Under the pieces are notes generated by a model. It ran no database searches, was not told the origin of the DNA, and saw nothing but the letters and a program-made list of their open reading frames with translations. The position numbers were made by a program, and so were the translations under genes. A DNA stretch of 64,000 nucleotides from Haloplanus salinus (lineage in GTDB: Archaea > Halobacteriota > Halobacteria > Halobacteriales > Haloferacaceae). How positions within the stretch are numbered: position 1 is the first letter of the stretch; each line of letters begins with the position of its first letter. This document shows positions 10,096-12,910 of this stretch, in pieces. The stretch lies in contig NZ_QPHM01000001.1 in NCBI RefSeq assembly GCF_003336245.1, positions 2,608,113 to 2,672,112 of the forward strand. The letters run 5' to 3'.

Positions 10096-10288
10096 CGGCG
10101 CGTTGACCCGGCCGACGCCGACGAGGCCGCCCGTGGACGGGCGTCTACGCCGGCCTGACCGACGTGCCGGCGGACGACGCGACGACGGACGGCCCGCTGG
10201 AGGCTCCCACTTGCGTATATATTCTGGTGATCGCCGTCGGATGACTCTAAAAGCTAATATTTAATAATTATAATACCAACTGTGACGT

Positions 10289-11086
10289 ATGGTACAGTGT
10301 AACAGTCATAGACCGGTAAACCGGCTCTGGATTCGGCGCCGATACCTCGTAGCGACGGTCGGCCTCGCCGCGCTGGGCGGGTGCACTGGCGGCGATGGGG
10401 GCGGCGCCGACGGCGAGGATAGTACCGAACCCCCTACCGACGACGAAGGGGAAGAAGAGGAAGGCGAAGAACTCCCCGACCCCGTCTCGGAGGACGAGTT
10501 CGAGTCGGGCCCGGTACCCGACGTCTACGTTTCGGCGGCCTCGATCGGCGGCGAAAGGCGAAATCCGGACGAACTACACGCAAAGGCAGACGTCCAATTC
10601 GCGGAGTACGACGAGGCGGTCGAAAACCCGGCCCACCAGCCCGGCCGCTCGTGTGGGAACTGTCACGAGTATATCGCCGACAAGAACGGCGACGGGTTCG
10701 GTGCTTGTGTGGCGGTCGAGGGCTACATCGGCAGGGAAGACTGGTGTACCGCCTGGGAAGAACTGCCGGAGCCGCCGGTTCCGGATGGGATGTCGGAGGA
10801 AGACTTGGCAACCGCCGACGTTCCAAGGGTCTACCGAACCGCCGAGTCCCAGGCCGGTGAATCGCGAACGCCCGACGGCCTCCTGCCGCAGGCTGACGTG
10901 GCGTTCGGCGAATCTGTCGATCAGATCGCGGACGGCCCTGCGGGCCCGGGTCAGTCGTGTGCGACGTGTGCGGAGTACATCCCGGACAAAAACGGGGACG
11001 GCTGGGGCGCCTGTGCGAAGGTCGAGGGGTACATCGCCGTCGAAGATTGGTGTTCCGAGTGGGAGAGCATCGCCGAAGCGACGTGA
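10289..11086 (+). CDS. Tat lipoprotein with two HiPIP-like iron-sulfur modules
   Basis: The N terminus has a twin-arginine stretch (IRRRYL), a hydrophobic core and a lipobox ending ALGGC (Cys32). An acidic linker of about 40 residues follows. Two homologous modules come next: C122-x2-C125-x14-C140-x12-C153 and C224-x2-C227-x14-C242-x12-C255, each with a Gly/aromatic pattern. This matches the four-cysteine order of high-potential iron-sulfur proteins, slightly shorter in spacing. Each module also has a DKNGDG loop between its second and third cysteines. It is probably a membrane-anchored extracellular electron carrier. Partners are not visible nearby. Confidence 0.75.
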   Translation: MVQCNSHRPVNRLWIRRRYLVATVGLAALGGCTGGDGGGADGEDSTEPPTDDEGEEEEGEELPDPVSEDEFESGPVPDVYVSAASIGGERRNPDELHAKADVQFAEYDEAVENPAHQPGRSCGNCHEYIADKNGDGFGACVAVEGYIGREDWCTAWEELPEPPVPDGMSEEDLATADVPRVYRTAESQAGESRTPDGLLPQADVAFGESVDQIADGPAGPGQSCATCAEYIPDKNGDGWGACAKVEGYIAVEDWCSEWESIAEAT

Positions 11087-11173
11087 CTCCCCACCGTCAG
11101 GACGGTCGACTTTCCGGACTGCAGCGGGAAACGACACGCTAGCGGAGTTTGCCCTCGGTTCTCGGGGGAACTA

Positions 11174-11193
11174 CGCCGGCCGGGATTCGAACC
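11174..11193 (-). repeat. Duplicated 3' end of tRNA-Gly (possible att scar)
   Basis: CGCCGGCCGGGATTCGAACC at 11174-11193 matches 19 of 20 bases with the T-arm/acceptor 3' end of the intact tRNA-Gly at 11288-11307. The two copies are direct repeats 114 bp apart. Such duplications are left by integrases that insert at tRNA 3' ends. The intervening sequence has no gene, so any element is gone. A decayed tandem tRNA is the alternative, since 7 bp of acceptor-like pairing can also be drawn in this copy. Confidence 0.5.
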
Positions 11194-11286
11194 ACGGTCG
11201 TTTCGCCCACGCTCGTTCACGTCACTCCCTGATTCAAATCGCCGGCGTCACGCATACACGTCTCTCACGTTCGTTCGAGACGGTAT

Positions 11287-11356
11287 GCGCCGGCCGGGAT
11301 TTGAACCCGGGCCATGAGCTTGGAAGGCTCAGGTCCTACCACTAGACCACCGGCGC
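11287..11356 (-). tRNA. tRNA-Gly (anticodon TCC)
   Basis: The reverse complement folds as a 70-nt cloverleaf: acceptor GCGCCGG with CCGGCGC, D arm GTC/GAC, anticodon stem TGAGC/GCTCA around the loop CTTCCAA, 4-nt variable loop, and T arm CCGGG-TTCAAAT-CCCGG. The anticodon TCC reads GGA and GGG glycine codons. CCA is not encoded. No intron is seen. Confidence 0.95.
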
Positions 11357-11478
11357 GCACGCCCTACTTCCGGACGGTGGAATAAGGCCGTTTCCCTTCG
11401 TCCTCGCCATCGAGCGACGCGGCATCGCCCCACGCCCGCACGAAACGATTATTCGCCCGGCCGCCGACCGAACACGTC

Positions 11479-11862
11479 ATGGACCCCGTCACCACCGACG
11501 ACGCCCCATCGTTCACCGATCTCTACTCCCTGCCGATCGGTCAGGGGATGATCCACGGCGACACCCTACACGTCGCCCAGTTGCCCGGCGATCCGGAGAC
11601 GGGCGACATCGTCGGCGAGACGATGGCCGAACAGGCCGAGCGAACCCTAGAGAACGTCGGGGCGACCCTCGACGCCGGCGGCTCGTCGTTCGACGACGTG
11701 ATCAAGGTCACCGTCTACGTCACCGACTTGGGCGCTTTCGCGGAGTTCAACGCGGTGTACGAACGGTACGTCTCCGAGCCGTATCCGGTTCGATGTGCCG
11801 TCGAGGTGGCGGCTCTCTACGAGACGGCCGTGGTCGAACTCGACGTCGTCGCCGCCGTGTGA
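11479..11862 (+). CDS. RidA/YjgF-family enamine/imine deaminase
   Basis: The 127-residue protein has the Rid-family features: GQGMIHGDTLHVAQLPGD near the N terminus, QAERTLENVGATL and the signature YPVRCAVEVAALY with the conserved Arg for substrate carboxylate. RidA hydrolyses reactive enamine/imine intermediates released by PLP enzymes, for example from threonine dehydratase. The usual CAVEVA region is intact. ATG start at 11479. Convergent with the next gene, which ends 5 bp after it. Confidence 0.85.
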   Translation: MDPVTTDDAPSFTDLYSLPIGQGMIHGDTLHVAQLPGDPETGDIVGETMAEQAERTLENVGATLDAGGSSFDDVIKVTVYVTDLGAFAEFNAVYERYVSEPYPVRCAVEVAALYETAVVELDVVAAV

Positions 11863-11866
11863 GGGC

Positions 11867-12910
11867 TCAGTCGTCCGCCGGCGATTCGATGGCGTCCGCC
11901 TTCCGAAACGCCCGGGCCGTCTCCCGGAGCGACTCCGAGACGGCGGGTACCTCGTCGGGGTCGACGGGTCCCTGCGCCTCGATTTCCTCGACGCTCCGCG
12001 GGAACGCCCGGAGATCCATGTGGATGGCGATGCCGGCTTTCGCGCCCTGCCCCATCGCGACCGGAATCTGGTTGTGACCCTGTACGAGGTCGCCGACGGC
12101 GTGGACGCCGTCGACGCTCGTCCGGCCGTGGTCGTCGACGACGACGGTGCCGTCGTCGTTCAGTTCACAACCGAGGTCGGCCGCGAGGGCGTTGTTGTAC
12201 TTCGAGCCGTACATGGGGAAGCCACCGCGGTACTCGCGAACGCTGCCGTCCTCGAACTCGAAGTCCTCCAGCCAGCCGTCGGGGCCACGGTTCACACCCG
12301 TGATCTCCTCGTGGATCACGTCGATGGGGTGGGCCCGGAGCATCCGGTCGGTTTCGTCGCTCCAGGTTGGGTCGTCGCCCCGGGTGAGGATGTCGACCTC
12401 GTCGGTGAAGTTGAGCATAATCATGGCGACGTAGGCGGCGCTGTCGCCGTGGCCCATCACGTACACCGACTCGTCGACGAACATGTAGGCGTCACAGTGG
12501 AGACAGTAGTGGAGTCCACGACCCGTCGGTGGGAGCGGGGGGTCGGGTTTCACGTCGCTGAAGCCCGTGGCGAGGACGACCCGCCGGGTGACGATGTCGT
12601 CGCCGTCGTCGACGACGAGGTGGAAGCGGTCGTCGCTCCGGTGGTCGATGTCGTTCACGAAGCCGCGCCGGTAGGTGGCGCCGTACTCCTGGACCTGTCG
12701 TTGAGCGGTCTGCAGGAACTCGACGCCGGAGACGTCCTCGGTGACGCCGATAACGTTGTGCGTATCCTGCATCATCGCGGCGCGGCCGCCGCCGCGGTTG
12801 ACGATCACGGCGTCGTGGCCGAGGCGCGTGGCGTAGAGGGCGGCGGTCAGGCCGGCCGGCCCGCCGCCGACGACGGCGACGTCGTAGGTGGTCTGATCGC
12901 TGTCTGTCAT
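11867..12910 (-). CDS. Thioredoxin-reductase-like FAD/NAD(P) oxidoreductase
   Basis: The 347-residue protein has an FAD-binding VVGGGPAGLTAALYA motif at the N terminus, a CLHC pair at C136/C139 and an NAD(P)-binding GHGDSAAYVAM motif. The late FAD motif is VDGVHAVGDLVQGHNQ. The order matches low-molecular-weight thioredoxin reductases, although CLHC replaces the usual CATC-type redox pair, so the partner may differ from classic thioredoxin. ATG at 12910, with a TATA-like box (reverse complement of CACTTAA-type sequence near 12936-12943) about 28 bp upstream. Confidence 0.8.
   Translation of the reverse strand: MTDSDQTTYDVAVVGGGPAGLTAALYATRLGHDAVIVNRGGGRAAMMQDTHNVIGVTEDVSGVEFLQTAQRQVQEYGATYRRGFVNDIDHRSDDRFHLVVDDGDDIVTRRVVLATGFSDVKPDPPLPPTGRGLHYCLHCDAYMFVDESVYVMGHGDSAAYVAMIMLNFTDEVDILTRGDDPTWSDETDRMLRAHPIDVIHEEITGVNRGPDGWLEDFEFEDGSVREYRGGFPMYGSKYNNALAADLGCELNDDGTVVVDDHGRTSVDGVHAVGDLVQGHNQIPVAMGQGAKAGIAIHMDLRAFPRSVEEIEAQGPVDPDEVPAVSESLRETARAFRKADAIESPADD

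Follow-up and report, generated by a model that had tools for sequence, protein, structure and literature searches.

The window, a 64,000-nucleotide stretch of the Haloplanus salinus genome, contains at 10289-11086 on the + strand a gene for a 265-residue lipoprotein composed of a twin-arginine (Tat) signal and two modules of the high-potential iron-sulfur protein (HiPIP) type. The parts of the gene listed next lie on the same strand. A candidate TATA-like promoter, an A+T-rich segment recognised by eye, is located roughly 10 to 40 bases 5' of the ATG (10249-10277). The signal peptide (10289-10381) carries the twin-arginine motif RRRYL at residues 16-20, and its end overlaps the lipobox LGGC (residues 29-32, 10373-10384), in which Cys32 is the predicted lipid-bearing residue. 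An acidic tether, whose length varies among the relatives, leads from the lipid anchor to the first module (10385-10510). The first HiPIP module comprises residues 75-157 (10511-10759; cysteines 122, 125, 140 and 153) and the second one residues 177-259 (10817-11065; cysteines 224, 227, 242 and 255). Between them lies a joint of 19 residues (10760-10816), which is fixed in length and belongs to a repeat unit of 102 amino acids. The mature protein contains 58 Asp and Glu residues and 11 Lys and Arg residues. The gene is flanked in the window by a gene of the DUF7260 family and by a tRNA-Gly gene, beyond which a RidA-like gene and then a gene for a pyridine-nucleotide-disulphide oxidoreductase follow. 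One end of the tRNA-Gly gene recurs about 100 bases away as a 19-base copy with one mismatch by eye (11175-11193 versus 11286-11356), possibly an old integration scar.

The preliminary description had read the protein as a Tat-exported lipoprotein with two C-X2-C-X14-C-X12-C modules in tandem, and the sequence features behind both elements were confirmed. The eight cysteines occur at the predicted spacing in the ORF 10289-11086, with a Trp three places past the last cysteine of each module. Across all six frames of the window (126,331 residues) the cysteine pattern was matched only twice, both times in this ORF, and in 100,000 shuffles of the protein at least one match was seen in 23 and two matches in none. 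In an alignment of 11 tandem proteins all eight cluster cysteines were invariant, as were the key residues of the signal and the lipobox (R16, R17, G31 and C32). A pattern search detected a twin arginine followed by a lipobox in 30 of the 31 tandems and picked up an earlier RR in several proteins. By motif the ORF would thus encode a Tat-type lipoprotein, for which export is predicted. No in-frame RR-lipobox start was found for the tandem ORF of Halolamina pelagica CDK2 (loci L030 and L068), where a frameshift or an assembly error may be responsible.

Membership in the HiPIP family, the other part of the original assignment, was borne out by agreeing evidence from Pfam, a PDB profile search and the homologues. 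The Pfam HIPIP profile (PF01355) matched the whole protein in two stretches with 42.7 bits (E 6.7e-11), and the modules taken singly with 28.9 (first) and 25.9 bits (second), all above the cut-off of 22. In a phmmer search of the PDB the HiPIPs 1hpi (E 1.4e-5) and 3h31 (E 6.4e-5) were found. A profile built from 48 modules retrieved 14 PDB chains at E<=0.1, 13 of which were HiPIPs; the best of them was 3h31 (E 8.2e-7), which we take to be the Rhodothermus protein. Structure prediction was less informative. AlphaFold2 gave a mean pLDDT of 35 for the tandem (18-row alignment) and, for the second module alone (48-row alignment), 61 in one model and about 40-44 in the other four, and Foldseek returned neither a HiPIP match nor any match at E<=0.001 with this low-confidence model of pLDDT 61. 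As there is no confident predicted fold, HiPIP membership rests on the sequence, and on that basis the protein is a real and conserved two-module HiPIP lipoprotein. It shares the cysteine order and the profile with the HiPIPs of PF01355 and, like them, is predicted to be exported; the haloarchaeal tandem differs from them in having two modules on one lipid-anchored chain and a 102-residue repeat unit. An assignment as a redox-inactive protein, whose cysteines on the outside of the cell bind zinc or form disulfides, is very improbable in view of the HiPIP profile match and the invariance of the eight cysteines in the 11 aligned tandems, even if no work demonstrating a cluster in a haloarchaeal HiPIP was found among the titles and abstract openings searched.

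A further claim, that the DKNGDG loop present in both modules resembles a calcium-binding turn, did not survive comparison with the relatives. The EF-hand consensus is DxNxDGxxxxxE. In 157 modules Asp was found at position 1 in 153 and at position 5 in 154, and Asn at position 3 in 139. Within the tandems, Gly occupied position 6 in only 9 of 34 first and 16 of 34 second modules, and position 12 was acidic in 23 of 34 first modules and in none of the 34 second modules, 31 of which have Lys or Arg there. Both loops of the window protein have Gly at position 6, followed at position 12 by Ala in the first and Lys in the second. With positions 6 and 12 not kept, an EF-hand-like calcium loop was rejected; the DxNGD loop may still form an Asx turn or a metal site of a different kind.

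In the family 42 of 170 genomes, and in the class 84 of 391, had a match to the Pfam HIPIP profile. The ORFs were read in 80 of these 84 genomes (G024, G034, G037 and G419 being the other four). The tandem with the 102-residue repeat was found in at least 21 of the 391 genomes, in one copy per genome, a distribution too sparse for a carrier generally needed by haloarchaea. The 80 genomes fell into overlapping categories: a differently spaced tandem in 3, a HiPIP-NosL fusion in 8 (by motif), another long C-terminal part on the HiPIP in 1 and a single-module form in 61. Among named records the tandem occurs in Halolamina, Salinigranum, Natronomonas, Haloarchaeobius, Halalkalirubrum, Salinibaculum, Halobellus, Natrinema and Haloterrigena, and on this comparison it is an old haloarchaeal form common to many relatives. 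Named Haloferax loci carry a single-module form of the tandem's own class in 11 of 12 cases. In all, 124 distinct HiPIP ORFs were collected, 90 with one module and 34 with two. The contig search depended on the query: the bare window protein gave no loci and an alignment gave 32. On plasmids, 12 records matched, none over more than 80% of the query, hence no tandem was found there; 8 of the 12, which are single-module forms, carry the NCBI annotation 'high-potential iron-sulfur protein'. A phage origin was considered and dropped, the phage collection containing no match.

The starts of the two modules are exactly 102 residues apart in 31 of the 34 tandems. In the same 31 proteins the joint is always 19 residues long, with 8 of its 19 positions invariant, and the distance from the lipid-bearing cysteine to the first module ranges from about 34 to 56 residues. 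A fixed joint combined with a variable tether would fit two domains held stiffly together and carried by a flexible anchor segment. By eye, the joint resembles the sequence ahead of the first module (GVSxEEF..GPVP and GMSExEL.TA.VP), suggesting that it is part of the repeat unit. A tree was built from 89 modules and 83 columns, with the long-branch module of L046 and those of L029, L050 and L126 excluded; in it, the first modules of the 31 tandems formed one clade (support 99/91) and the second modules another (98/96). This separation points to one old duplication. An earlier tree of 93 rows, which included the very long branch of L046, split the second-module group in two.

The remaining three tandems, all from Haloferax, have module spacings of 114, 119 and 119 residues. 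The 93-row tree grouped their modules with the Haloferax single modules and the single module of L035 (92/81). In the 89-module tree the Haloferax rows were not monophyletic and appeared as one clade in 6% of the bootstrap trees. Constraining the Haloferax modules to join the main first or second modules cost 26 and 28 log units, respectively, with AU p values of 0.106 for the first modules and 0.035 for the second. Because of these p values, and because the Haloferax rows do not form one clade, a second, independent duplication in Haloferax is favoured but not proven. The Haloferax proteins also bear on the idea that there is no wire at all, and that the tandem is a dosage duplication, in which a single tether holds two carriers that work independently. 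Their modules are far more alike than those of the main class (69, 78 and 70 of 83 residues identical) and their acidic joint is longer and variable, as dosage predicts. In the main class, in contrast, all 31 proteins have the same repeat length and the divergence between the halves is old, with 45 of 83 residues identical in the window protein, 39 in L053 and 46 in L063. For the tandem in general we therefore consider the dosage explanation rather unlikely.

The two halves differ at individual positions. Tandem modules differ from 1hpi in carrying Phe or Leu where 1hpi has a Tyr, presumably the cluster-covering Tyr of bacterial HiPIPs (Tyr19 in Allochromatium). In the window protein this residue is Phe in both modules, as read for the first module from the phmmer alignment; a Tyr three residues further on in that module makes the assignment less sure. 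Among the 31 tandems, Phe was found in all first modules, and the second modules had Leu (25), Phe (5) or Val (1); the 90 single-module forms had Tyr in 65, Phe in 13 and Val in 1, and 11 were not read by the pattern. Three places past the last cysteine, 23 of the 31 first modules have Tyr, and 30 of the 31 second modules have Trp. Of the first modules, 29 carry an extra cysteine immediately ahead of the first cluster cysteine; no second module does. This cysteine is seen, for example, in L053, L056 and L063; the window protein, one of the two exceptions, does not have it. On these alignments the two sites are non-equivalent in most relatives, which makes a difference between them in potential or stability probable. 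Since it has Phe and Trp at the two compared positions in both modules, the window protein is less asymmetric than most of its relatives.

The fixed 102-residue repeat and the differentiated halves fit a two-cluster unit, and the electron wire that had been proposed for this protein is a plausible mechanism and, by inference, the most likely one. The protein would be a Tat-exported lipoprotein at the outer face of the cytoplasmic membrane, in which each HiPIP module holds one [4Fe-4S] cluster and the two modules act as one unit, at a fixed distance from each other, on a flexible acidic tether. Single electrons would be taken from a membrane quinol-oxidising enzyme and passed through both clusters to an acceptor on the outer face, for example a copper protein or a haem-copper oxidase. 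Taken as a whole, with export, cluster content, potentials, direction of flow and partners all as predicted, this mechanism is somewhat more probable than its negation. Counting against it are the low-confidence structure models, the sparse distribution, the finding of no conserved neighbour gene, and the Phe in both modules of the window protein, where the asymmetry is weaker. A precedent for its first half is the HiPIP of Rhodothermus marinus, which reportedly accepts electrons from alternative complex III and is named among the periplasmic proteins reduced by that complex (PMC5928083). By analogy, the haloarchaeal tandem may likewise be an outer-face carrier fed by a membrane quinol oxidoreductase. 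Were this confirmed, the protein, with its two clusters and a joint of fixed length, would offer a simple natural system for measuring electron transfer between HiPIP clusters.

The genome of the window contains two COX1 and nine Copper-bind matches, which are possible acceptors, and a conserved neighbour gene was not found. No Pfam family occurred in more than 4 of the 90 neighbour proteins of tandem-class loci, a set that includes a few single-module loci and for L076 was anchored on the wrong ORF. The commonest neighbour families were general ones (aminotransferase class V, Usp, HTH). N2O reductase was rejected as a partner in Haloplanus salinus, whose genome has no nosZ match.

Single-module haloarchaeal HiPIPs resemble the tandem in their Tat-type lipoprotein start, cysteine spacing and a similar DxNGD loop. 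They differ in having one module, to which NosL is fused in some of them and a cupredoxin-like domain in one. Fusions with a C-terminal NosL-like part (ORFs of L085, L088, L091, L093, L097, L098, L117 and L132) were identified by motif in 8 of the 84 HiPIP genomes, of which 80 were read, and Pfam recognised both domains in all four that were scanned (L085, L093, L097 and L132; NosL at 5e-15 to 4e-12). The fusion gene of Haloarcula halophila adjoins an SCO gene and a gene of the TauE/SafE family. In the ORF at L128:837-1610 the HiPIP is followed by a C-terminal cupredoxin-like domain, for which the Copper-bind score (21.0 bits) was just below the cut-off of 21.2. The genome of the window encodes a second, single-module HiPIP (G000:C1:2837742; L148:9352-14558). 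On its 3' side lie a gene for a fused NosL and NosD protein, an ABC ATPase gene and, beyond this, an ORF that by eye resembles a membrane protein; an HTH-like ORF (by eye) and a NosL gene are on the opposite strand. In Haloferax mediterranei a single-module HiPIP gene is located on pHME505 directly 3' of a heavy-metal P-type ATPase gene (L162:5002-8243). At the locus of the Salinigranum marinum plasmid HiPIP no copper-type neighbour gene was found.

In G068, a genome of the window's own genus, a divergent single-module HiPIP gene (L046, 9711-10178) stops 6 bases upstream of nosZ (10185-12212), which is followed downstream by nosD, an ABC permease gene and nosL. This HiPIP is a candidate electron donor to the haloarchaeal N2O reductase. 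HiPIP and nosZ matches were both present in 15 of the 391 genomes, and by coordinates they are side by side only in G068. The NosL fusions and the links to SCO, the metal ATPase and nosZ make single-module HiPIPs candidate partners of haloarchaeal copper enzymes, and point to a tie with these enzymes or with the way they are assembled. Evidence of this kind was not found for the tandem.

The same associations of its single-module relatives, including the NosL/NosD neighbours, would suit a role of the tandem itself at copper sites, either reducing Cu(II) or cysteines during assembly or feeding outer-face copper enzymes. We regard this as unlikely: the tandem class lacks linkage to copper genes, the window genome lacks a nosZ match, the copper-linked single-module class and the tandem modules are on separate branches of the tree, and adjacency to nosZ is limited to 1 of the 15 genomes. 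A wider, tentative proposal, possible but doubtful, is that haloarchaeal HiPIPs are unrecognised outer-face electron carriers that serve copper enzymes as well as the assembly of these (N2O reductase, CuA sites), and that the tandem would be a membrane-tethered two-potential wire among them, fixed by a single old duplication and kept under selection for an unchanging distance between the clusters.

Such carriers would be of interest for haloarchaeal denitrification. According to a 2021 article on that subject, the electron donors to NarH and NirK were not known, halocyanin was suggested as the donor to NirK, and intermediate donors and acceptors were still to be identified (PMC8301774); its main text does not use the term 'HiPIP'. 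In the openly readable literature that was searched, no paper was found that joins HiPIP with haloarchaea, halocyanin or NosL, and within the same scope no title or abstract opening was found to deal with the tandem or with a haloarchaeal HiPIP. The terms 'high potential iron-sulfur protein' and 'Haloferax' both occur in PMC5852612. Single-module haloarchaeal HiPIPs are already known as such from NCBI annotation; a HiPIP-NosL fusion protein is annotated there as NosL only.
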